From Hyphomicrobiales bacterium (GTDB taxonomy: Bacteria; Pseudomonadota; Alphaproteobacteria; Rhizobiales; Beijerinckiaceae), in contig CAKNFJ010000001.1 of assembly GCA_930633495.1 (NCBI GenBank), forward strand, positions 3,743,001-3,807,000: 64,000 nt of DNA, read 5' to 3'. How positions within the stretch are numbered: position 1 is the first letter of the stretch; each line of letters begins with the position of its first letter. The position numbers were made by a program, and so were the translations under genes. The notes below the pieces were generated by a model. The model was not told the DNA's origin. It ran no database searches and was given only the letters and a program-made list of their open reading frames with translations. Positions 42,994 through 57,168 of the stretch are shown piece after piece.

Positions 42994-43833
42994 ATGCCTG
43001 ATTCCAACGCCGTTTCGCCGACCGCCAATCTCCTCAAGGGCAAGCGCGGGCTCGTGATGGGCGTCGCGAACAATCGCTCCATCGCCTGGGGCATCGCCAA
43101 GGCGGCCGCGGATGCCGGCGCCGAGCTCGCCTTCACCTATCAGGGCGACGCGCTGAAGAAGCGGGTCGAGCCGCTGGCGAAGGAGCTCGGCGGCCATGTC
43201 GTCGGGCATTGCGACGTCACCGACGGCGCCACGATCGACGCGGTCTTCGCCGAGATCGAGAAGCTCTGGGGCAAGCTCGACTTCGTCGTGCATTGCATCG
43301 CCTTCTCCGACAAGGACGAATTGACCGGCCGCTATGTCGAGACCAGCGAGGCGAACTTCACCAAGTCGCTGCTGATCTCCTGCTACTCCTTCACCGCCGT
43401 CACCCAGCGCGCCGAGAAGCTGATGACCGATGGCGGCTCCATGCTGACGCTGACCTATTACGGCGCCGAGAAGTGGATGCCGCACTACAACGTCATGGGC
43501 GTCGCCAAGGCCGCGCTCGAATCGAGCGTGCAGTATCTCGCCGCCGATCTCGGCCCCTCGAAGATCCGCGTCAATGCGATCTCTGCCGGGCCGATCAAGA
43601 CGCTCGCGGCCTCCGGCATCGGCGATTTCCGCTATATCTTGCGCTGGAACGAGTACAATTCGCCGCTGCGCCGCACCGTCACGATCGAGGAGGTCGGCGA
43701 GACGGCGGTGTTCCTCGTCTCCGACATGTCGCGCGGCATCACCGGCGAGATCATGCATGTCGATGCCGGCTATCATGTCGTCGGCATGAAAGTGCCGACA
43801 GCGCCGGATATCTCCCTCGACAAGGGCGAGTGA
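42994..43833 (+). CDS. fabI: Enoyl-ACP reductase FabI
   Basis: FabI reduces the trans-2-enoyl-ACP double bond in fatty-acid elongation. The 279-residue product has VMGVANNRSIAWGIA (the FabI cofactor loop), CDVTDGATID, SLLISCYSFTAVTQRA, the catalytic Tyr in SMLTLTYYGAEKWMPHYNVMGVAK (Tyr and Lys around N-V-M-G-V-A-K), and INPAL-like AISAGPIKTLAASGI, all given here in short blocks. It is the target class of triclosan. It is a single gene with the J-protein upstream and fol genes facing it. Confidence 0.96.
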   Translation: MPDSNAVSPTANLLKGKRGLVMGVANNRSIAWGIAKAAADAGAELAFTYQGDALKKRVEPLAKELGGHVVGHCDVTDGATIDAVFAEIEKLWGKLDFVVHCIAFSDKDELTGRYVETSEANFTKSLLISCYSFTAVTQRAEKLMTDGGSMLTLTYYGAEKWMPHYNVMGVAKAALESSVQYLAADLGPSKIRVNAISAGPIKTLAASGIGDFRYILRWNEYNSPLRRTVTIEEVGETAVFLVSDMSRGITGEIMHVDAGYHVVGMKVPTAPDISLDKGE

Positions 43834-43883: not shown

Positions 43884-44399
43884 TTACCCGGCCAGCAAGG
43901 TCTTCAAACGATCCGTCGCGGCATCGTCGCGGCGGATCGTTTCGTCCGTGGCTTCTGCAAGCAGCTCGGTCACGGTCCGCCCGCCGATCCGGCGTTGCGG
44001 GAGGATCTCGGCCAGCGGCACCAGCACGAAGGCGCGCTCAGGGATGCGCGGGTGCGGAATCTGCAGGCGGGCCTGGTCGATGACGGCATCGCCATAGGTC
44101 AGGATGTCGATGTCGAGCGTACGCGGTCCCCAGCGTTCGCGGCGCTCTCGGCCGCCGGCCCGCTCCAGCTCGAGGCAGAAGGCGAGGAGGTCCTGCGGGG
44201 CGAGCGAGGTCTCGACCAGCGCGGCCATGTTCAGGAATTCCGGCTGATCGGTCTTGCCCCAGGGAGGGGTGCGATAGATGCAGGAGAGCCGGCCGAGCGC
44301 GATGGCCGGATGATCGCGCAGCCCGCGCAAGGCAGCCGCGAAGGCGGCGACCGGATCGCCGAGATTGCCGCCGAAGGCGAGCGCGGCCTCAATTTTCAC
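43884..44399 (-). CDS. folK: HPPK (2-amino-4-hydroxy-6-hydroxymethyldihydropteridine pyrophosphokinase)
   Basis: FolK transfers pyrophosphate from ATP to 6-hydroxymethyl-7,8-dihydropterin. The 171-residue product contains LAFGGNLGDP, the substrate loops around SCIYRTPPWG, ERAGGRERRERWGPRTLDIDIL (the Asp-rich metal motif in DIDIL) and IPHPRIPERAFVLVPLAEI. It overlaps folB by 11 bp. The set order is folP-folB-folK on the minus strand. Confidence 0.96.
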   Translation of the reverse strand: MKIEAALAFGGNLGDPVAAFAAALRGLRDHPAIALGRLSCIYRTPPWGKTDQPEFLNMAALVETSLAPQDLLAFCLELERAGGRERRERWGPRTLDIDILTYGDAVIDQARLQIPHPRIPERAFVLVPLAEILPQRRIGGRTVTELLAEATDETIRRDDAATDRLKTLLAG

Positions 44400-44763
44400 G
44401 CTGGAACCTCAGCTGGATGCCGACCGAGCCGAGCGTCGCGGGAATCGGTGGGGCCGGCTTGCACAGCGTGACCATGACACCATCGACCGAGGGGAAGGCG
44501 TCGAGGATCGCCACGGCGACGGCGCGCGCCGCGCCTTCGAGGAGATGGTAGCGGCGGGCGGTGAAGGCGTCGCTGGCGATGGCGACGACCCGGCCGTAGT
44601 CGACCGTGTCGGCAAGGTGATCGCTGGCGGCGGCGGCGCGCAGATCGACGTCGAGCGCGATGTCGAGGACGAAGCGCTGGCCCAGCCGCTCCTCCTCCGA
44701 GAAGAAGCCGTGATAGGCGTAGATATCGAGCTTCTCGATCAGAATACGGCCGGTTTCGCTCAC
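44389..44763 (-). CDS. folB: Dihydroneopterin aldolase
   Basis: FolB cleaves 7,8-dihydroneopterin to 6-hydroxymethyldihydropterin and glycolaldehyde. The 124-residue product has IEKLDIYAYHGFFSEEERLGQRF with the YAYHGFF start, DTVDYGRVVAIASDAF, LLEGAARAVAVAILD, and a C-terminal VMVTLCKPAPPI. It overlaps folP by 4 bp and folK by 11 bp, so the three pterin genes are coupled. Confidence 0.95.
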   Translation of the reverse strand: MSETGRILIEKLDIYAYHGFFSEEERLGQRFVLDIALDVDLRAAAASDHLADTVDYGRVVAIASDAFTARRYHLLEGAARAVAVAILDAFPSVDGVMVTLCKPAPPIPATLGSVGIQLRFQREN

Positions 44764-45602
44764 AGCTCTGCCTTCGTCTTGTCCTCGATCGCGGCCCAGG
44801 TCTTCAGCGCGTCGATATGCGGCGCGACGTCATGGACGCGGATGATGGCGGCGCCGCGGCTGGCGCCGTAGAGATGGGCGGCGATGCTGGCGGCGAGCCG
44901 CTCGGCCGGGACCGTGCGCCCGGTGACGAGACCGAGGGTCGATTTGCGCGAGGCGCCGAGCAGGACCGGACAGCCGAGCGCGCTCAGCCTGTCGAGATGG
45001 CGGATCAGGTCGAGATTCTGGCGCGCGGTCTTGCCGAAGCCGATGCCGGGATCGACGACGATCTGATTGTGCGCCACGCCGGCCTGCGTCGCGATCGCGA
45101 TCGAGCGTTCGAGGAAGCGCAGCACCTCGTCGAAGATGTCGAGCGCGGCATCCACCGTCTCGCGGTTGTGCATCAGGATGATCGGCGCGCCGGCACGGGC
45201 CGCCACCGCGGCGATGCGCGGATCGCGCTGGGCGCCCCAGACGTCGTTGACGATCGAGGCGCCTGCGGCGAGCGCGGCTTCGGCCACCTCGGCCTTGTAG
45301 CTGTCGATCGAGATCGGGGCGTCGATCCGCTCCTTCAACCGGGCGATCACCGGCAGCACGCGCGCGGCTTCCGTCTCTGCATCGACGGCTGCGTGGCCGG
45401 GGCGGGTCGATTCGCCGCCGACATCGACGATGGCCGCGCCTTCCGCAGCGAGCTGCGCGCCATGAGAGACCGCCGCTTCGGTGCCGGCGTGCAGGCCGCC
45501 ATCCGAAAAGGAATCGGGCGTGACGTTGACGATGCCCATGACGAGCGGCTGCGCATCGAGCGCGAGGCTGCGGCCATTGGGCAAGGTGAGGGTGTGGGGC
45601 AT
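44760..45602 (-). CDS. folP: Dihydropteroate synthase
   Basis: FolP joins 6-hydroxymethyl-dihydropterin pyrophosphate with p-aminobenzoate; it is the sulfonamide target. The 280-residue product has MGIVNVTPDSFSDGG, GGESTRPG, a substrate-binding ISIDSYKAEVAEAA segment and DPGIGFGKTARQN followed by LLGASRKS. The start chosen (MPHTLTLPNG) begins 5 residues before the first strand. A longer in-frame form exists upstream. Head of folP-folB-folK, divergent from the histidine phosphatase gene. Confidence 0.95.
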   Translation of the reverse strand: MPHTLTLPNGRSLALDAQPLVMGIVNVTPDSFSDGGLHAGTEAAVSHGAQLAAEGAAIVDVGGESTRPGHAAVDAETEAARVLPVIARLKERIDAPISIDSYKAEVAEAALAAGASIVNDVWGAQRDPRIAAVAARAGAPIILMHNRETVDAALDIFDEVLRFLERSIAIATQAGVAHNQIVVDPGIGFGKTARQNLDLIRHLDRLSALGCPVLLGASRKSTLGLVTGRTVPAERLAASIAAHLYGASRGAAIIRVHDVAPHIDALKTWAAIEDKTKAEL

Positions 45603-45753
45603 GCGGTTCCGACAGTGACTGAGCATGGGCGCTATACACAGCCCGTGTAAATTCGGCCACAGAAAGCGGCCGATCGTCGCCATGGAGCGAATGCATGGGT
45701 TCCAGTCGCCTTCGGCTTTTGACGTCGGCGGCGCCAGCGTGCAGAAGCCGGGC

Positions 45754-46350
45754 ATGGTTCCGCTTTCGCTTCCGCACCGCCTCATCCTCGTTCGCCATGG
45801 CGAGACCGACTGGAATCGCGAGGGGCGCCTGCAGGGCGGGCAGGACATTCCGCTGAACGAGCTCGGCCGCAGGCAGGCCGCCGAAGCTGCCGGGCGCCTC
45901 AAGACGCTGGAGCCCGCCTATGCCGGGCTCGACTACATAGCCTCGCCGATGCAGCGGGCGCGGGAGACGATGGACATCCTGCGCCGCGAACTCGCCTTAC
46001 CGGAGGGCGCCTATGCGATCGACGAACGCTTGCGGGAGCTGACCTTCGGCGAGTGGGAAGGTTTCACCTGGCGCGATATCCGCAAGGCCGAGCGTGAGCA
46101 GGCGCATCTGCGCGAACGCGACAAATGGGGCTTCGTGCCGCCCGGCGGCGAGAGCTATCGCATGCTGGCCGAGCGCGTCCGCCCGGTGCTCGAAGGCCTG
46201 CAACGCGAGACGGTGATCGTCAGCCATGGCGGCGTGGCGCGGGCTGTGCTGGCGCTGGTCGGAGCGGTGGCGCCGCGCGAGGCCTCGATGGTCGAGATCT
46301 GGCAGGGCAAGCTTCTCGTCGTGACCGGAAACAGGGCCGACTGGCTCTGA
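45754..46350 (+). CDS. Histidine phosphatase family protein
   Basis: A 198-residue phosphoglycerate-mutase-like phosphatase. The catalytic motif RHGETDWNREGRLQGG lies near residues 13-28 and the second His is in IVSHGGVARAV near residue 157. Other landmarks are ASPMQRARET and LRELTFGEWEG. The substrate is unknown and the family includes alpha-ribazole phosphatases and broad phosphomonoesterases. The frame continues upstream to 45625, with possible ATGs at 45682 and 45691. The 45754 start was chosen because it begins near the catalytic core. Confidence 0.85.
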   Translation: MVPLSLPHRLILVRHGETDWNREGRLQGGQDIPLNELGRRQAAEAAGRLKTLEPAYAGLDYIASPMQRARETMDILRRELALPEGAYAIDERLRELTFGEWEGFTWRDIRKAEREQAHLRERDKWGFVPPGGESYRMLAERVRPVLEGLQRETVIVSHGGVARAVLALVGAVAPREASMVEIWQGKLLVVTGNRADWL

Positions 46351-46597
46351 GCGAGCCAGCGGCCGGCCGCGTCGCCGGTCTGCATTCATCGCTGGTTCAC
46401 GCGTGATTCGGCAGGGAGAATGTGCTAGCAAGGCGTCGTGACGCGGCGGCCTGCCCGGCCGGGGGGCTCACGCGGATATCGCGGCGCGGAAGCGACGATT
46501 CCGGTTTTCTTCATAAGGTGCGTGATAAGGCGCCATGCGGCTGGAGGCAGGAGCTGCCACGGCGTCAGGAACGGGCCTTTCAGCGCAGCGGGGCGCG

Positions 46598-49500
46598 ATG
46601 AACGATATGACGAAGCCGCCGGCGGCGTCTGATGCGGCCGGCGCTGATCGCCTCGCCATGCTGGCCGGCGAGAAACGCCCCGATCTGATCCGCGACGAGG
46701 TTCTGGCCGAGATTTTCGCGGCGACCGTTGCCACGCGGCCCGATCATGCGGCGCTGACCGATCGCGCGCACAGCCTCAGCTATGCCGAGGTCTGGGCGCT
46801 GGCCGGGAAGCAGGCGCGGAGCCTGCAGCTCGCCGGTGTCGGCCCGGGCGACATGGTCGGGCTGTGGATGCCGCGCGGCATCGAACTGCTCGTCGCGCAG
46901 ATCGCGATCACACGCGCGGGCGCAGCCTGGGTGCCCTTCGATGCCGAAGCCCCGGTCGAGCGCATCGCGACCTGCCTCGACGACGCGGCTGCCAAGGGCA
47001 TCGTCACCTGCGCCGGCTGGGCCGGCCGGGCGGAGGCGATCGAGCGGATCGTGTGGACGCCCGAGGGCCTCGCCGCAGGGTCCGATGCAACCGAGCCGCC
47101 GACGCGGCCAGTCGGCTTGACCAAGGACCACCCGGCCTATCTGATCTACACTTCGGGCTCGACGGGCACGCCGAAGGCGATCGTCATCAGCCACCGCAAT
47201 ATCTGCCATTTCCTGCGCTCGGGGAACGCGCTTTACGGCATCGGCCCGGAGGATGTGGTCTTCCAGGGCGCCTCGGTCGCGTTCGATCTGTCGATGGAGG
47301 AGATCTGGACGCCCTATCTCGTCGGCGCGACGCTGTTCGTCGCCTCGCCGGAGATGATGGGCGATGCCGAGAAGCTGCCCGCGATCCTCGACGAGGCCGG
47401 CGTCACCGTCATCGACACCGTGCCGACGCTGCTCGGCATCCTGCCTGCCGACGTGCCGTCGCTGAAGCTGATCCTGCTCGGCGGCGAGGCGCTTCCGCCC
47501 GCGATCGTGCAGAAATGGTCGAAGCCGGGCCGGCGCATCCTCAACACCTACGGCCCGACCGAAGCGACCGTGGTCGCGACGGCGGCCGAGGTCGTCCCCG
47601 GCGAGATCGTCACCATCGGCAAGCCGATTCCGAACTACACCGCCTATGTCGTCAGCGAGGATCTGCGGCTGCTGCATCCGGGCGAGCAGGGCGAACTGCT
47701 GATCGGCGGGCCGGGCGTCGCCAAGGGCTATCACGGCCGCCCGGAGCTGACCGCCGAGAAGTTCATCGCCAATCCCTTCGCCGGGGTCGCCGGCGAGGGA
47801 GATCCGGTGCTCTACCGTTCGGGCGATGCGGTCAGCCTCGACGAGAACCGCAACATCGTCTTCCACGGCCGCATCGACGACCAGGTCAAGATCCGCGGCT
47901 TCCGCGTCGAACTCGGCGAGATCGAATCGAAGCTGGCCGACGAGCCCGGCGTCGGGCAGGCGGCCGTCGTGCTGCGGACCGATGACGGCATCGAGCGGCT
48001 GGTCGCCTTCGTCGTGGCCGAGCCGGGCGTGGCGGTGGACGGCGGGGCGCTGCGAGCGGCGCTGCGCGAGAAGCTGCCGCCTTATATGGTGCCGGCGCAT
48101 TTCGAGGCGGTCGGCTCGCTGCCGCGCATGGTGTCCGGCAAGGTCGACCGCAAGATGCTCAAGGCGGCGCCGCTGACGGCGCCGAGCGCCGATGGCGAGC
48201 AGGAGCCGCCGCGCAACGAGACGGAAGCCGTTCTGCTCGACGCCGCGAAGCGCGTGCTCGGCGCGGCCAGCCTGCCGCTGGAGGCGGATTTCTTCGTCGA
48301 TCTCGGCGGGCATTCTCTGCTGGCGGCGCGCTTCATCTCGATCGTGCGCGAGACGCCGGCCTATGCCGGCATCACCCTGCAGGACGTCTATGGCGCCCGC
48401 ACCTTGCGCGCCATGGCGGCCCTGCTCGACGAGCGGGGCGCCGCGACGGCGGAGGATCTTTCGTTCACGCCGCCGCCCTTCCTGCGCCGTTTCCTCTGCG
48501 GGCTGGCACAGGCTGCGGTTCTGCCGGTCATCATCGGCCTGTCGACGGCGCAGTGGCTCGGCGTCTTCGTCACCTACATGATCCTCTCGGGCGAGGATCT
48601 GCCGCTGCTCGGCCAGATCGCCGCGCTGCTCGGCGTCTACATCATGATCATTCTCGCGACCGGCCTGATCGCCATCGCGCTGAAATGGATCGTGCTGGGC
48701 CGGACCAAGCCGGGAATCTACCCCCTCTGGGGCGTCTATTATTTCCGCTGGTGGTTCGCGGCGCGCGTCGCCGGGCTCGTCCACATCAAATGGCTGCAGG
48801 GCACGCCGGTGATGCGCTTCTACTGGCGCCTGCTCGGCGCCAGGGTCGGGCGCGACGTCATCATCTCAGACTACGAGGCGGGCGCCGTCGACCTGATCGA
48901 GATCGGCGACGGCACGAGCTTCGGCTCCAAGACCACCTTCGCCAATGGCGAGGCGATCGGCGACAAGCTGATCATCGGCCGCATCACCATCGGCAAGGAC
49001 GTCTCGGCCGGGGCCTCCGTCGTGCTCGGCCATGGCTCGGTCATCGGCGACCATGCCGAGATCGGCGATCTCACGGCCATCCCGCCCGGCGCCCATATCG
49101 GAGAGGCGGAGATCTGGGACGGCACGCCCGGCCGGAAGATCGGAACGGTCGATGTCGCTTCCCTGCCGCCGCTGGCCGAAGCCTCGCCGGCGCGACGCGC
49201 CCTGATGACCATGTTCTACATCCTAATGCTGGTGGTGCTGCCGCCGGTCAGCCTGCTGCCGATCTTCCCGGCCTTCTGGCTGTTCGACAAGATCGACTAC
49301 TTCATCGCCGGCTGGACCGAGATCAGCTATCTCTGGTTCCTGCCGATCCTGACCTGGCCGACCGCGATCGGCCTCATCGCCTTCACCGTGCTGCTGATGG
49401 CGGGGCTGCGCTGGCTCATCCTGCCGCGCGTCACCTCCGGCTCCTATTCGATCCATTCCGGCTTCTATGCCCGCAAATGGACGGTGGCGCTGGCGACGGA

Positions 49501-50620
49501 AGTGACGCTGGAGACGCTGTCCTCGCTCTTCGCGACGATCTACATGCGGGCCTGGTACCGGCTGATGGGCGCGAGCATCGGCAAGGGTGCGGAGATCTCG
49601 ACCAATCTCTCCGGCCGCTACGATCTCACCGGCATCGGCTCGGGCAATTTCATCGCCGACGAGGTGGTGTTCGGCGACGAGGACATGCGCCGCGGTTATA
49701 TGCGCCTCGATGCGACGCGGACCGGCGAGCAGGTCTTCGTCGGCAACGACGCGGTGGTGCCGCCCGGCGCCGTCATTCCCGACCGCGTGCTGATCGGCAT
49801 CAAGTCGAAGCCGCCGGCCAATGACCGCATGCAGCCGGGCGATACCTGGTTCGGCTCGCCGCCGATCAAGCTGCCCACCCGGCAGAAGGTCGATCTCGGC
49901 GCGGACTGGACCTACAAGCCTTCCTTCGCCAAGCAGTTCGGGCGTGGCGTCTTCGAGGCGCTGCACACCTCCTTCCCCTCGATGCTGTTCATCACCTTCG
50001 GCACGATCGCGGTCGACATGGTGCTGCAGCAGAAGATCAACGAGGGCGACTGGCTTGGGCTCGTGCTCTCCTTCATGGGGGTCGCGGTGCTGATCGCCGT
50101 GGCGCAGGCGCTGATCTGCGCCGCCGTCAAATGGCTGATGATGGGCGCCTACAAGCCGGTCATGAAGCCGATGTGGTCGTGGTGGGCGATGCGCACCGAG
50201 GCCGTGGCGGTGATGTATTGGGGACTCGGCGGCAAGGTGCTGTTCGACTATCTGCGCGGCACGCCGTTCCTGCCCTGGTTCCTGACGCTGTTCGGCGCCA
50301 AATACGGCAAGGGCGTCTGGCTCGACTCCACCGACATCACCGAATTCGACTGCATCAAGGTCGGCGATTTCTGCACGGTGAACGCCCATTCGGCCCTGCA
50401 GACCCATCTGTACGAAGACCGGGTGATGAAGGTCGGCCGGGTGCGCCTCGGCAAGGGCGTCTGCGTCGGCGCGGGCGCGACGGTGCTCTATGACACCCAT
50501 GTCGGGGACTACGCCCAGATCGGGCTGTTGACCGTGATCATGAAGGGCGAGAACCTGCCGGCGCATACGCGCTGGGAGGGCGCGCCCGCGGTGCCGGCGA
50601 AGGCGACGGCGGCGCATTGA
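46598..50620 (+). CDS. Pls/PosA-type single-module NRPS (poly-amino-acid synthetase)
   Basis: A 1,340-residue membrane NRPS. An adenylation domain (about 20-520) has YTSGSTGTPKA at 184-194, NTYGPTEAT at 316, the A8 region GRIDDQVKIRGFR at 424 and the catalytic Lys in GKVDRK (K515). A carrier domain has Ser573 in DLGGHSLL. Six transmembrane helices come in three pairs, each pair followed by a left-handed beta-helix-like C domain (about 747-835, 990-1068 and 1233-1318, with hexapeptides such as IGDHAEIGD). This A-T-(TM2-C)3 order is that of epsilon-poly-L-lysine synthetase. An ATG at 46535 would add 21 residues. No condensation or thioesterase domain is seen. Confidence 0.9.
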   Translation: MNDMTKPPAASDAAGADRLAMLAGEKRPDLIRDEVLAEIFAATVATRPDHAALTDRAHSLSYAEVWALAGKQARSLQLAGVGPGDMVGLWMPRGIELLVAQIAITRAGAAWVPFDAEAPVERIATCLDDAAAKGIVTCAGWAGRAEAIERIVWTPEGLAAGSDATEPPTRPVGLTKDHPAYLIYTSGSTGTPKAIVISHRNICHFLRSGNALYGIGPEDVVFQGASVAFDLSMEEIWTPYLVGATLFVASPEMMGDAEKLPAILDEAGVTVIDTVPTLLGILPADVPSLKLILLGGEALPPAIVQKWSKPGRRILNTYGPTEATVVATAAEVVPGEIVTIGKPIPNYTAYVVSEDLRLLHPGEQGELLIGGPGVAKGYHGRPELTAEKFIANPFAGVAGEGDPVLYRSGDAVSLDENRNIVFHGRIDDQVKIRGFRVELGEIESKLADEPGVGQAAVVLRTDDGIERLVAFVVAEPGVAVDGGALRAALREKLPPYMVPAHFEAVGSLPRMVSGKVDRKMLKAAPLTAPSADGEQEPPRNETEAVLLDAAKRVLGAASLPLEADFFVDLGGHSLLAARFISIVRETPAYAGITLQDVYGARTLRAMAALLDERGAATAEDLSFTPPPFLRRFLCGLAQAAVLPVIIGLSTAQWLGVFVTYMILSGEDLPLLGQIAALLGVYIMIILATGLIAIALKWIVLGRTKPGIYPLWGVYYFRWWFAARVAGLVHIKWLQGTPVMRFYWRLLGARVGRDVIISDYEAGAVDLIEIGDGTSFGSKTTFANGEAIGDKLIIGRITIGKDVSAGASVVLGHGSVIGDHAEIGDLTAIPPGAHIGEAEIWDGTPGRKIGTVDVASLPPLAEASPARRALMTMFYILMLVVLPPVSLLPIFPAFWLFDKIDYFIAGWTEISYLWFLPILTWPTAIGLIAFTVLLMAGLRWLILPRVTSGSYSIHSGFYARKWTVALATEVTLETLSSLFATIYMRAWYRLMGASIGKGAEISTNLSGRYDLTGIGSGNFIADEVVFGDEDMRRGYMRLDATRTGEQVFVGNDAVVPPGAVIPDRVLIGIKSKPPANDRMQPGDTWFGSPPIKLPTRQKVDLGADWTYKPSFAKQFGRGVFEALHTSFPSMLFITFGTIAVDMVLQQKINEGDWLGLVLSFMGVAVLIAVAQALICAAVKWLMMGAYKPVMKPMWSWWAMRTEAVAVMYWGLGGKVLFDYLRGTPFLPWFLTLFGAKYGKGVWLDSTDITEFDCIKVGDFCTVNAHSALQTHLYEDRVMKVGRVRLGKGVCVGAGATVLYDTHVGDYAQIGLLTVIMKGENLPAHTRWEGAPAVPAKATAAH

Positions 50621-50690: not shown

Positions 50691-51809
50691 ATGTCGCACA
50701 ACAGCTTCGGCCACCTCTTCCGCGTCACCACCTTCGGCGAGAGCCATGGCCCCGCCATCGGCTGCGTCGTCGATGGCTGCCCGCCGCTGATCCCGCTGAC
50801 GGAAGTCGACATCCAGGGCGATCTCGACCGGCGCCGCCCGGGGCAATCGCGCTTCACGACGCAGCGCCAGGAGCCGGACCAGGTCCGCATCGTTTCCGGC
50901 GTCTTCGCCCGCGAGAGCGACGGGGTGCAGGTGACGACGGGCACTTCGATCGGCCTGCTGATCGACAATGTCGACCAGCGCTCGAAGGACTATTCCGACA
51001 TCAAGGACAAGTACCGGCCGGGACATGCCGATTTCACCTATGACGTGAAATACGGCATCCGCGACTATCGCGGCGGCGGGCGGTCCTCGGCGCGCGAGAC
51101 GGCGATGCGGGTTGCCGCCGGAGCCATCGCCCGCAAGGTCGTGCCCGGTATGGTGGTGCGCGGCGCGCTGGTGCAGATGGGGCCGCACAAGATCGATCGC
51201 GCCAACTGGGACTGGGAAGAGGTCGGCCGCAACCCCTTCTTCTGCCCGGATGCCAAGGCCGCAGCCTTCTTCGCAGAATACCTCGACGGCATCCGCAAGG
51301 CGGGCTCCTCGATCGGCGCGGTGCTGGAGATCGTCGCGGAAGGCGTGCCGGAAGGGCTCGGCGCGCCGATCTATGGCAAGCTCGACTCCGAGATCGCGGC
51401 GGCGCTTATGAGCATCAATGCCGTCAAGGGCGTCGAGATCGGTGAGGGCTTCGGCGCGGCGGAACTCTCGGGCGAGGAGAATGCCGACGAGATGCGCGCG
51501 GGCAATGACGGCAAGCCATTGTTCCTCTCCAACCATGCCGGCGGCATTTTGGGCGGCATCTCGACCGGGCAGCCGATCGTGGCGCGCTTCGCGGTGAAGC
51601 CGACCTCCTCGATCCTGGCGACGCGCGCGACAGTGACGCGCACGGGCGGCGAGGCGGAGATGTTCACGAAGGGGCGGCATGACCCCTGCGTCGGCATTCG
51701 GGCGGTGCCGGTCGGCGAGGCGATGGTCGCCTGCGTGCTGGCCGATCAGTATCTGCGCCATCGCGGGCAGGTGGGCGTGATCGAGCCGCGCTGGCCGTTT
51801 CAGGAGTGA
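50691..51809 (+). CDS. aroC: Chorismate synthase
   Basis: AroC makes chorismate from EPSP using reduced FMN, the branch point for aromatic amino acids and folate pABA. The 372-residue product has [60 protein letters not shown] (in short blocks), and a C-terminal [22 protein letters not shown]. It stands alone after the Pls-like gene and ends just before a palindromic element. Confidence 0.97.
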
Positions 51810-53283: not shown

Positions 53284-54213
53284 TCAGCTCCCCATCAGCG
53301 CTCCAACATGGGCGGCCGTCGATTTCGCCAGCGCGTCGAGGTCGTAGCCGCCTTCCAGCACGGAGACGATCCGGCCGCCGGCATATCTGTCTGCCGCATC
53401 CATCAGCTTCTGCGTGGCCCAGGCGAAATCGGCCTCGCGCAGATTGATGGTGGCGAGCGGATCGCGCCAATGCGCATCGAAGCCGGCCGAAATTACGATG
53501 AGATCGGGCTGGAAGGCATCCAGGCGAGGCAGGATCGCGACCTCGAAGGCCTCGCGGAACGCGTCCGAGCCTTCGCCGGCATGCAGCGGGGCGTTGACGA
53601 TGGTCCCGTGCTTCCCGCGCTCGGAGGCTGCGCCCGTTCCCGGATAGAGCGGCATCTCATGCGTCGAAGCGTAGAGCACGCTGGCATCGTCCCAGAAGAT
53701 GTCCTGGGTGCCGTTGCCGTGATGGACGTCCCAGTCGACGATCGCCACGCGCTCGGCGCCATGGGCCTTCTGCGCATGGCGTGCCGCGATGGCGGCGTGG
53801 TTGAAGAAGCAGAAGCCCATGGCGCGGTCGTGCTCGGCGTGGTGGCCGGGCGGCCGCATCGCGAGGAAGGCGTTGCGGGCCTTGCCGGTCATGACCTCGT
53901 CTACCGCCGTCGCGGCCCCGCCGACCGCGCGCATGACCGCTTCCATCGTGCCGGGCGACATGAAGGTGTCGCCATCGACCTGGATGAAGCCGGCGGCGGG
54001 AGCCGAGGCGATCAGGGCTTCCGCATAGGGGGAAGCGTGGCAGAGCGTGACCTGTTCGAGCGTTCCGTGCGGCGCCTCCACCCGAATCAGTGAGGCGAAA
54101 CGCTCGGCTTCCAGCGCCCGGTCCACCGCCCTCAACCGGTCGGCGCATTCGGGGTGGCCCGGCGGCATGGCGTGCTCGATGCCCGCCTGATGGGTAATGA
54201 GAAGCGTGGTCAA
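53284..54213 (-). CDS. Histone deacetylase family protein
   Basis: A 309-residue zinc hydrolase of the HDAC/acetylpolyamine amidohydrolase/acetoin-utilisation superfamily. It has AMRPPGHHAEHDRAMGFCFFN in blocks, VDWDVHHGNGTQDIF with the zinc Asp and His, the second zinc Asp in SAGFDAHWRDPL, and GGYDLDAL. Bacterial members deacetylate polyamines or proteins, and the substrate is not known here. The frame runs on upstream to 54351, but a TTG at 54213 begins just before the conserved LLITHQAGIEH and is the best start. Confidence 0.9.
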   Translation of the reverse strand: MTTLLITHQAGIEHAMPPGHPECADRLRAVDRALEAERFASLIRVEAPHGTLEQVTLCHASPYAEALIASAPAAGFIQVDGDTFMSPGTMEAVMRAVGGAATAVDEVMTGKARNAFLAMRPPGHHAEHDRAMGFCFFNHAAIAARHAQKAHGAERVAIVDWDVHHGNGTQDIFWDDASVLYASTHEMPLYPGTGAASERGKHGTIVNAPLHAGEGSDAFREAFEVAILPRLDAFQPDLIVISAGFDAHWRDPLATINLREADFAWATQKLMDAADRYAGGRIVSVLEGGYDLDALAKSTAAHVGALMGS

Positions 54214-54437
54214 GCGAGCTTTCCCGGGAGGCTGGTGTTGAAAATGAGTGCACAGCGTGGCCGGTTTGCCACGCTTGCGCGCCATCAGGGCATCAGAAGG
54301 GGAACTTGATTGCGCCTCGCCGGTTTGAGGCCTAGTGCTGCGCCAGACCATCGCTGCCCGTTCAAAGCGCGGGCGATACGAAGCGTTAACTCTCCATTCA
54401 TCATAAAGGCTGCCTTCGGGTCGCTCTGGTGGAAGCT

Positions 54438-55034
54438 ATGAAGAAGACGGTTTTCGTTGCCCTGGCGGTCTCCGCCCTTCTGGGCGCCTGCCAGTACAAG
54501 AGCGTCGCCGCTCCGGAGCTGTCAGCCCGTGACGCGGAATATATCGCGCTCGTCCCCAAATTCGATACCCACCTTCCTTATCTTCCCTACGAGATCGCCG
54601 ATCCGACCGGCCAGCCGCCCGGCACGATCTATATCGATACGAAGGAGAAGTTCCTCTATCTCGTGCTGCCGAACAAGAAGGCGATCCGCTACGGCGTCGC
54701 GACCGGCGAGGAGGCTTATGGCTGGACCGGCGAGGCCGTGATCCAGCGCAAGGCGGAATGGCCGCGCTGGACCCCCCCGGCGGAGATGATCAAGCGCTGG
54801 CCGCACCTCAAGCCGGTTGCCGGCGGGCTTGCCGGCGGTCCCGACAATCCGCTCGGCGCGCGCGCGCTCTACCTCTATCAGGGCGGCAAGGACACGCTGT
54901 ATCGCATCCACGGGACCAACGAGCCGGAGACGATCGGCCGGTCGGCCTCGTCCGGCTGCATCCGCATGCGCAATATCGACGTGATCGACCTCTACAACCG
55001 CGTTCCCGCGGGCGCGAAGGTCGTCGTCGTCTGA
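54438..55034 (+). CDS. L,D-transpeptidase (YkuD) lipoprotein
   Basis: A 198-residue lipoprotein. The signal is MKKTVFVALAVSALLGACQ with acylated Cys at residue 18. A YkuD catalytic domain has IHGTNEPETIGRSASSGCIR, with the His in HGT and the catalytic Cys in SSGCIRM, near residues 163-181. It makes 3-3 peptidoglycan cross-links or attaches proteins to peptidoglycan. A GTG at 54429 in the same frame is less likely. A stem-loop terminator follows. Confidence 0.94.
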   Translation: MKKTVFVALAVSALLGACQYKSVAAPELSARDAEYIALVPKFDTHLPYLPYEIADPTGQPPGTIYIDTKEKFLYLVLPNKKAIRYGVATGEEAYGWTGEAVIQRKAEWPRWTPPAEMIKRWPHLKPVAGGLAGGPDNPLGARALYLYQGGKDTLYRIHGTNEPETIGRSASSGCIRMRNIDVIDLYNRVPAGAKVVVV

Positions 55035-55788: not shown

Positions 55789-57168
55789 TCAGGCGGCGAG
55801 CAGGCCTTCGGCCTTGGCCCAGTCCAGGGTCTTGTCGAGGGCGCGCTCGAAGCGGCTGAACATCTCCTCGATCTCGGCATCGTTGATGACCAGCGGCGGG
55901 CAGAAGGCGAGACGGTCGCCCATGGCGCGGGTGATGAGGCCCTCCTGCAGGGCGAAGGCGACAGCCTTGGCGCCGACACCCTTCTTGACCTCGAAGGCGG
56001 CCTTCGTCGCCTTGTCCCTGACCAGCTCGGCGCCGCCGATCAGGCCGACGCCGCGCGCCTCGCCGACGAGCGGATGCTCGGCGAGCTTGTTCAGGCGGCG
56101 GATGAAGGTCGGCGAGACCTTCTCGACATGCTCTACGATCTTCTCGCGCTGATAGATCTCCAGCGTCTTCACCGCGACGGCGCAGCCGACGGGATGACCG
56201 GCATAGGTGTTGCCGTGGCCGAAGGTGCCGATCTTGCGGCTCTGGTCGACGAGGACGTCATAGACCTTGTCGTTCATCATCACGGCGCTGAGCGGGAAAT
56301 AGGCCGAGGTGATCTGCTTGGCGAGCGAGATCGTGTCGGCGTTCAGGCCGTAGGTCTCGGTGCCGAACATCTTGCCGGTGCGGCCGAAGCCGGTGATGAC
56401 CTCGTCCGAGATGAAGAGGATGTCGTATTTGGCGAGGACGGCGTTGATCTTCTCGAAATAGCCGTCCGGCGGGGTGATGGCGCCACCGGCACCCATCACC
56501 GGCTCCGCGATGAAGGCGGCGACGGTATCCGGCCCTTCGCGCAGGATCATCTCCTCGAGCTCGGCGGCAAGCCGCGTCGAGTAGTCCTGCTCGCTCTCGC
56601 CCGGCTCGGCGAAGCGGTAGTGGTGCGGGCAGGAGGTGTGCAGGATGCCCGGCAGCGGCAGGTCGAAGTCGATATGGTTGTTCGGCAGGCCGGTCAGCGA
56701 GGCGGAGGCGACGGTGACGCCGTGATAGCCCTTCAGCCGCGAGATGATCTTCTTCTTTTGCGGGCGCCCGAGCGCGTTGTTCATGTACCAGACGATCTTG
56801 ACCTGGGTGTCGTTGGCGTCGGAGCCGGAGGCGCCGTAGAACACCTTGGAGATCGGAACCGGAGCGATTTCCTTCAGCTTCTCGGCGAGCTCGATCGCCG
56901 GATCATGGCTGCGCCCGCCGAAGATATGGGTGAAGGGCAGCTTCTTCATCTGCTCATAGGCAGTCTCGATCAGCTCCTGGTTGGAATAGCCGAGCGAGGT
57001 GCACCACAGGCCCGCCATGCCCTCGATATATTCCTTGCCGGCGGAATCGTAGACATAGATGCCCTTGCCGCTCTCCAGCATGAGAGGGCCCGTCTGCCGA
57101 TGCGTGGCGAGGTTGGTATAGGGATGGACCAGGGTCTCGATATCCCTGACAGCGACGTTCGACAGCAT
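55789..57168 (-). CDS. Class III aminotransferase (omega-amino acid:pyruvate type)
   Basis: A 459-residue PLP enzyme. It has FYGASGSDANDTQVK, ISRLKGYHGVTVASASLTG (in blocks), the PLP-binding FISDEVITGFGRTG with Asp pairing the pyridine nitrogen, and the internal-aldimine Lys in ISLAKQITSAYFPLS near residue 286. Members accept beta-alanine, GABA, putrescine or aromatic omega-amines and use pyruvate or 2-oxoglutarate as acceptor. The substrate here is not clear. It lies 135 bp downstream of the amidase gene on the same strand and may act on the amidase's amine product. Confidence 0.9.
   Translation of the reverse strand: MLSNVAVRDIETLVHPYTNLATHRQTGPLMLESGKGIYVYDSAGKEYIEGMAGLWCTSLGYSNQELIETAYEQMKKLPFTHIFGGRSHDPAIELAEKLKEIAPVPISKVFYGASGSDANDTQVKIVWYMNNALGRPQKKKIISRLKGYHGVTVASASLTGLPNNHIDFDLPLPGILHTSCPHHYRFAEPGESEQDYSTRLAAELEEMILREGPDTVAAFIAEPVMGAGGAITPPDGYFEKINAVLAKYDILFISDEVITGFGRTGKMFGTETYGLNADTISLAKQITSAYFPLSAVMMNDKVYDVLVDQSRKIGTFGHGNTYAGHPVGCAVAVKTLEIYQREKIVEHVEKVSPTFIRRLNKLAEHPLVGEARGVGLIGGAELVRDKATKAAFEVKKGVGAKAVAFALQEGLITRAMGDRLAFCPPLVINDAEIEEMFSRFERALDKTLDWAKAEGLLAA

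Follow-up and report, generated by a model that had tools for sequence, protein, structure and literature searches.

A 64,000-nucleotide stretch of DNA from a Hyphomicrobiales bacterium (assembly GCA_930633495.1, contig CAKNFJ010000001.1, positions 3,743,001 to 3,807,000; hereafter the window) carries a gene whose product is predicted to be a synthetase of the Pls/PosA family, a group of nonribosomal peptide synthetases that make polymers of basic amino acids. We have high confidence that the protein belongs to this family and acts by the mode proposed below, in which adenylation (A), thiolation (T) and condensation (C) domains work in turn. As judged from its pocket alignment and from trees, the enzyme is of the PosA/Pls type and works like both, but with neither enzyme's exact pocket. 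In trees of both halves, the clade that shares its DLED-type pocket code adjoins the lineage of PosA, the delta-poly-L-ornithine synthetase of Acinetobacter baumannii (8G95-8G98), and not Pls, the epsilon-poly-L-lysine synthetase of Streptomyces albulus (7WEW). A first reading made from the DNA sequence only had named epsilon-poly-L-lysine synthetase as the match, a choice that is replaced here by PosA as the closest characterised relative. The fuller proposal, a one-protein synthetase of the inner membrane that would make an isopeptide polycation, probably from ornithine, has in our estimate about an even chance of being correct. The nearest named relatives are Bosea sp. 47.2.35 (94% identity), B. 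robiniae (93%) and B. thiooxidans (92%), which assign the host, a soil bacterium, to Bosea.

The gene (46598-50620, plus strand) is an intact open reading frame (ORF) of 1340 codons and a stop. Its frame is also open from an upstream ATG at 46535; the start at 46598 is favored because it fits the lengths of 1324-1354 amino acids found among the 81 listed proteins of at least 78% identity. Orthologues carry the name 'Pls/PosA family non-ribosomal peptide synthetase' at NCBI. The family membership and the domain order proposed in the sequence-only reading both stand. NCBIfam model TIGR02353, which represents the Pls/PosA family, matches residues 637-1331 with 592.3 bits against a curated cut-off of 423.1, TIGR01733 scores 400 bits against a cut-off of 317, and the trees described below keep the protein inside the family. 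Pfam detects AMP-binding, AMP-binding_C, PP-binding and Hexapep domains, and the A domain retains its core motifs. The protein is a single module that runs from the A domain through a T domain with its serine to a terminal membrane domain, and it carries neither a standard C domain nor a thioesterase (TE) domain. Hydropathy places six hydrophobic segments as three pairs in the membrane half, and hhalign profile comparison finds its three repeats to be homologous (C1-C2, 99.96% probability, E 4e-39; C2-C3, 99.57%, E 1e-23; C1-C3, 100%, E 5e-40). This is in line with the published PosA model, which is also three-fold (PMC10522769). A PDB search with the C-terminal half returned no solved family member, only weak matches to hexapeptide acyltransferases and gamma-carbonic anhydrases (best E 2e-6).

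Alignment of the A domain to the crystal-structure sequences of PosA and Pls yields the pocket code DLEDLGTVVK (D230, L231, E234, D273, L293, G295, T317, V325, V326 and K515). The same ten residues had been chosen by hand earlier, numbered D235, L236, E239, D278, L299, G301, T322, V330, V331 and the final Lys, and the register is confirmed for the stretch that holds nine of them. This stretch served as the PDB query, as three other PDB searches ranked the two-domain LgrA first, and its best structure match is PosA with 150 bits, compared with 97 for Pls. Code positions 1 and 3 are acidic in PosA as well as here, namely Asp (D230, PosA D217) and Glu (E234, PosA E221). The further PosA/Bosea pairs are M218/L231, H260/D273, N280/L293, T304/T317, V312/V325 and S313/V326. 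The pocket is doubly acidic as first described, which points to a basic substrate, and a code for hydrophobic residues is not what it shows.

Both reference enzymes have the same A-T-membrane C layout, and they differ from our synthetase in the pocket. The PosA code, DMEHNGTVSK, shares D, E, G, T and V (5 of the 9 visible positions) and departs at positions 2 (Met, Leu here), 4 (His, Asp here), 5 (Asn, Leu here) and 9 (Ser, Val here). Pls reads DAESIGTVV at its nine visible positions and is identical at 6, with differences at position 2 (its hallmark Ala, Leu here), position 4 (Ser, Asp here) and position 5 (Ile, Leu here). Leu is close to Met in volume. The PosA study relates position 2 to substrate, with Ala for Lys, Met for Orn and Phe for diaminopropionate (Dap) or 2,4-diaminobutyrate (Dab), and it lists DLEDIGTV(T/V/I)K as a signature apart from the known ones (PMC10522769). 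Another study discusses DMEDVGSVDK, which is identical at 8 of 10 positions to the clade variant DLEDVGSVVK, together with Orn domains and notes that it also accepts Lys. A Glu and Asp pair with Thr or Ser at position 7 occurs there in the Orn and Lys codes DMEDVGSVDK, DGEDHGTVVK and DGEDHGTVTK, whereas the main Arg cluster has Ala at position 7. The acidic pair alone is no proof of a diamino acid, because Arg-activating domains share it (PMC12283262).

Our comparison drew on 120 loci. Of these, 80 were taken as the best 80 among 140 relatives that the protein's own peptides retrieved, a choice biased to near relatives, and 40 come from the 49 order-wide matches over the cut-off. Among 121 aligned rows, the first three code letters are DLE in 101, DFE in 10, DYE in 1, DGE in 3, DAE in 3 and DME in 2, with 1 incomplete. 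The DLE codes comprise DLEDLGTVVK (48), DLEDIGSVVK (39), DLEDIGTVVK (10), DLEDVGTVVK (2), DLEDVGSVVK (1) and DLESIGSVVK (1), and 21 of the 40 order-wide loci carry a DLE code. In open-licence full text, we found no product, substrate assay or mutant for DLED-code enzymes.

Two trees, both built by a quick method with SH-aLRT support only, place this clade. The A-domain tree has 60 rows (57 of 132 family rows, our protein and two PDB segments), and the C-domain tree has 49 (48 and our protein), with two ornithine-code rows and without the PosA C domain. In the A-domain tree, all 40 DLED rows cluster in a single clade (SH-aLRT 96) within a group of 43 that also holds three ornithine-code rows, including the PosA segment from 8G95 (98). 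The corresponding values for the C domain are 100 for the DLED clade and 96 for its group with the ornithine-code rows, so that PosA's code-mates group with our synthetase in both trees. Lysine-code rows fall outside the DLED and ornithine group in both trees, and the Pls segment joins them on a long branch (82) in the A-domain tree, away from DLED. Identity to the better ornithine-code row is 52% for the A domain (L125) and 39% for the C domain (L123), and identity to one lysine-code row (L155) is 38% and 30%, respectively.

Conservation suggests how the protein might work. In this and the following counts, 119 of the 121 rows were used, with L032 and L159 dropped as incomplete. S573 of the T domain is Ser in 119 of 119 rows. 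H1270 is the sole His column of the membrane half kept in all of them, and it is found in repeat C3 only, where C1 and C2 have Gly and Glu at the aligned positions. N1262, Q1268, E1273 and K1278 are likewise invariant, in rows with DLED and with other codes. We propose that the A domain would adenylate a basic diamino acid, which the phosphopantetheine arm on S573 would carry as a thioester once a phosphopantetheinyl transferase (PPTase) encoded elsewhere in the genome has loaded the arm. The membrane-embedded C1-C2-C3 domain would then form a bond between the activated carboxyl and a side-chain amine, supplied by another monomer or by a chain, and a short isopeptide polycation would be the outcome. 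H1270 might serve as the single catalytic base; its confinement to C3 suggests one catalytic centre.

Candidates for the loading enzyme are present. The host genome has two PF01648 genes, which code for proteins of 202 amino acids and an AcpS-sized 134 amino acids. The 202-residue protein can be called Sfp-type only tentatively because it falls below every curated NCBIfam PPTase cut-off (HetI, 45 bits of 370). At 11 of 88 non-Bosea loci (8 of 69 DLE and 3 of 19 non-DLE), the four genes on either side of the synthetase include one that resembles a PPTase. At 10 of these 11 loci the gene was scanned, and 10 of 10 match PF01648, 7 of them above the gathering score. These PPTase-like genes (L071, L075, L079, L086, L134, L137, L148, L150, L152, L153 and L155) are divergent, with 3 of the 10 scanned below the gathering score.

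The synthetase is a core gene of Bosea. All 67 Bosea genomes contain an orthologue (E at most 1e-200), including all 64 of good quality, and for this reason the observation is not a matter of chance. In 57 of the 67, there is no second full-length relative at this threshold; the host genome (5.94 Mb) itself has one full-length match and 19 partial ones, 18 to the A-domain region and one to the C-terminal end. The best copy is only 58-60% identical in eight Bosea genomes. Two of those eight loci were examined, and the fabI-like and phosphatase genes stand beside both and aroC beside one. A match (E at most 1e-200, with no filter on the code) is present in 262 of the 397 genomes of the bacterial family, spread over 31 of its 43 genera, and TIGR02353 is over its cut-off in 48 of 297 genomes of the order.

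The common gene order in Bosea is fabI (a gene that we take to be fabI-like), histidine phosphatase, synthetase, aroC. Immediately upstream and in the same orientation, the phosphatase gene is found at 24 of the 31 Bosea-like loci, 25 of the 58 other DLE loci and none of the 18 non-DLE loci; aroC lies within 1.5 kb downstream at 28 of 30, 13 of 62 and 0 of 17, respectively. These counts are probably low, since the ORFs were called mechanically and some flanks were short; an adjacent phosphatase went unscored in 7 of the 31 Bosea-like loci. Divergence of the synthetase tracks that of fabI (r 0.79, 32 loci) and of aroC (r 0.86, 24 loci), with 0 of 2000 permutations as high in either case, although the correlations weaken to 0.63 and 0.57 without Bosea. 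The ratio of nonsynonymous to synonymous substitution (dN/dS) in five Bosea-like pairs is 0.13-0.26 for the synthetase, versus 0.05-0.11 for aroC and 0.02-0.09 for fabI. Thus, the gene is inherited vertically and under purifying selection, though it is less constrained than its housekeeping neighbors.

Several of our findings weigh against a PosA-like core enzyme. Of the nine visible pocket positions, six equal Pls and only five equal PosA, the PosA contact S313 is Val as in Pls, and Asp at position 4 is absent from both enzymes and typical of Arg domains. We found no characterised enzyme with the exact code DLEDLGTVVK. The DLED clade sits on a long stem (1.25) in the C-domain tree, and therefore a change of function is possible. 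In addition, 135 of 397 family genomes have no match at E at most 1e-200, only 5 of 190 genomes of the class match at E at most 1e-250 (three of these within the family), and the synthetase evolves faster than aroC and fabI. The pocket leaves some room for the same machine using L-lysine to make epsilon-poly-L-lysine, which we consider unlikely but worth serious attention. The positions shared with S. albulus Pls include T and V-V, the Lys code DGEDHGTVVK (PMC12283262) is identical to ours at 8 of 10 positions, and DGEDHGTV in a P. syringae pyoverdine synthetase has the Lys domain BacB-M1 as its best match (PMC3207962). However, the machine prediction for that same DGEDHGTV is a hydrophobic residue (PMC3207962, Table 2), and DGEDHGTVTK is listed as an Orn code (PMC12283262). 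Leu, rather than Ala or Gly, at position 2 would also leave less room by the PosA rule, and the lysine-code relatives from the same order (L155, L156 and L158) lie outside the DLED and ornithine group in both trees. It is improbable that the enzyme uses arginine, a different guanidino amino acid or some unusual basic residue, from which a product of undescribed type would result. Arg domains cluster on D-A/V-E-D-I/V/L-G-A-V/I-T/D-K (PMC12283262), with which our code agrees at positions 1, 3, 4, 5, 6, 8 and 10, and a Bdellovibrionales member of the family is active with L-Arg (PMC10522769). Yet Thr occupies position 7, or Ser in members of the clade, in line with the Orn and Lys codes and unlike the Ala of the Arg cluster, and Leu at position 2 is large for Arg. 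A guanidine is also a poor nucleophile for the side-chain bond made by this family.

Lysine, ornithine and diaminobutyrate had all been offered as substrates at the outset, and the basic character holds whereas Dab does not fare well. In its favor, poly-Dab is the product of some other members of the family, and the pocket becomes shorter when position 2 is bulky (PMC10522769). Matches to Dab aminotransferase models do occur in 67 of 67 Bosea genomes, but these are weaker, the best scoring 286 bits for a cut-off of 402 and 256 bits for one of 552, and neither Dat (TIGR00709) nor EctB (TIGR02407) is above its cut-off in any of the 67. Because no genome has a Dab aminotransferase above the curated cut-offs, and given Leu rather than the poly-Dab hallmark Phe at position 2, we regard Dab as a highly unlikely substrate in Bosea. 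The presence of an EctB-like gene beside the synthetase in 6 of 6 loci with DFEC or DFEP codes, unlike Bosea, also argues against it. A further rival has no free polymer at all: the enzyme might attach a single basic amino acid, or a few of them, to a lipid or polymer of the envelope, after the model of DltA-DltC-DltB with D-Ala. This we judge very unlikely, even though core status in Bosea with a mostly constant position amid housekeeping genes, a membrane domain weakly similar to hexapeptide acyltransferases and the long stem branch of the DLED C domain would all suit it. Against it stand the invariance of H1270, N1262, Q1268, E1273 and K1278 across codes, the free homopolymer that PosA makes (PMC10522769), and the scanned loci, where no recurrent envelope gene was seen beside the synthetase outside the syntenic block. 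L-ornithine, to which the trees and the PosA rule point, is our best guess for the substrate, one that we would expect to prove right about half the time. The host genome has argJ above its cut-off.

The DFE-code synthetases, of the Dap/Dab type by the PosA-paper rule, come from the same order and have the same family and layout, and their C domains are 22-24% identical to ours in two rows (L126 and L122). An EctB-like Dab aminotransferase gene adjoins the synthetase at L126, L127, L129, L137, L151 and L159, which served as a positive control, and four of these six genes were scanned, with 4 of 4 above both cut-offs. The DFEC/DFEP synthetase and its EctB-like gene are likely a poly-Dab cassette in this order. 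There is no EctB-like gene next to the synthetase at four DFEA loci and one DYEC locus. No close one was found at DLE loci; what 19 of these have is a distant relative, at most about 25% identical and at a distance of over 2.7 kb. A class III aminotransferase gene in the window (55789-57168, minus strand) was rejected as a Dab source: it scores best against NF004767, which models a general aminotransferase (717 bits over 517), and its 25 best models include none for a Dab aminotransferase.

Ten Bosea genomes carry a second synthetase (L161-L170), 55-56% identical, with the code DLEDIGSVVK in 10 of 10. The fabI, phosphatase and aroC genes are absent from all ten stretches around these copies, which may derive from duplication or transfer within the DLED clade. 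An in-frame TGA inside the second copies was set aside, as the copies are open to the normal end and give slightly shorter proteins; we took these codons as terminal stops.

The coordinates of the main features are collected in the table below. Consistent with the sequence-only reading, none of the six neighboring genes scanned is known for the degradation or export of such polymers. A wider scan for partners covered four genes on each side, called by a GC-frame rule, at 100 loci (69 non-Bosea DLE, 19 non-DLE and 12 second or deep Bosea copies); the recurrent clusters recognised in it comprise members of the syntenic block, genes confined to Azospirillum, several generic genes and a PPTase. 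The syntenic block also holds a gene for a histone-deacetylase-like amidohydrolase (PF00850, 309 bits; 53284-54351, minus strand). Such enzymes can act on acylated polyamines. Homologues occur at 10 of 88 non-Bosea loci, nine of them DLE loci with other block genes and one DYEC, and because nine of the ten hold other block genes we did not count it as a partner. A short YkuD L,D-transpeptidase gene (54429-55034, plus strand) has a homologue near one second-copy locus, L164. Genes that are presumably folK-folB-folP-like (43884-45902, minus strand) lie between the fabI-like gene and the phosphatase gene. Close to the synthetase, their homologues recur at 31-32 of 120 loci, which with a single exception are Bosea-like.

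Table. Features of the synthetase gene and its conserved neighbors, in window coordinates.
Feature	Position	Strand	Basis
Pls/PosA-family poly-diamino-acid synthetase (predicted), 1340 aa	46598..50620	+	ORF, TIGR02353, Pfam, homologue lengths
Adenylation domain, residues ~36-523	46703..48166	+	TIGR01733, Pfam, PDB alignment
Pocket D230, L231, E234 (PosA D217, M218, E221)	47285..47299	+	Alignment to 8G95-8G98
Pocket D273 (PosA H260)	47414..47416	+	Alignment
Pocket L293 and G295	47474..47482	+	Alignment
Pocket T317, V325, V326 (PosA T304, V312, S313)	47546..47575	+	Alignment
A-domain lysine K515, motif A10	48140..48142	+	Alignment
Thiolation (PP-binding) domain	48230..48427	+	Pfam; phosphopantetheine serine S573 at 48314-48316
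Hydrophobic pair 1, 628-646 and 667-703 (residues 628-703)	48479..48706	+	Hydropathy
TIGR02353 membrane polymerisation domain, repeats C1-C3	48506..50590	+	NCBIfam, profile comparison
Hydrophobic pair 2, 867-897 and 913-937 (residues 867-937)	49196..49408	+	Hydropathy
Hydrophobic pair 3, 1125-1143 and 1149-1184 (residues 1125-1184)	49970..50149	+	Hydropathy
H1270, candidate catalytic base in repeat C3	50405..50407	+	Conservation in 119 rows
fabI-like gene (presumed name) of the conserved block	42994..43833	+	Synteny
Histidine phosphatase (PF00300), conserved upstream neighbor	45625..46350	+	Library scan, synteny
aroC, chorismate synthase, conserved downstream neighbor, 70 bp gap	50691..51809	+	Library scan, synteny

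That Bosea has a gene of this type, with this code, is already known. A 2023 announcement for Bosea sp. NBC_00550 describes a non-alpha poly-amino acid cluster (antiSMASH class NAPAA) with the code DLedLgTVvK, from the same genus and with the same code as ours, and reports it from each of the other seven complete Bosea genomes (PMC10508160). To this we add the count across 67 genomes and the core-gene pattern that it reveals, the synteny, the placement on the PosA side, in the poly-ornithine lineage, and the argument that makes diaminobutyrate a poor prospect.

The function of bacterial polycationic homopoly(amino acid)s has been called unclear (PMC9606270). Because the synthetase is a core gene at a largely fixed chromosomal place in Bosea, its polymer might serve a standing physiological role rather than act as an optional antibiotic, a proposition for which we see the chances as roughly balanced. 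A more specific proposal, which we put forward as a speculation that could well be wrong, is that the DLED-code enzymes are a branch of their own among the poly-diamino-acid synthetases, one that became a vertically inherited core function in Bosea and many family relatives. A constitutive, cell-associated polycation, probably delta-poly-L-ornithine, would be made from a primary-metabolism substrate at one centre at H1270 and would serve envelope or ion economy rather than act as an antibiotic. Present in 67 of 67 genomes, mostly as a single copy at a largely fixed place in a culturable genus, the synthetase offers a good place to probe the role of such a polymer. Moreover, its code resembles one of the family's unassigned signatures (PMC10522769), and its substrate would inform a large clade.

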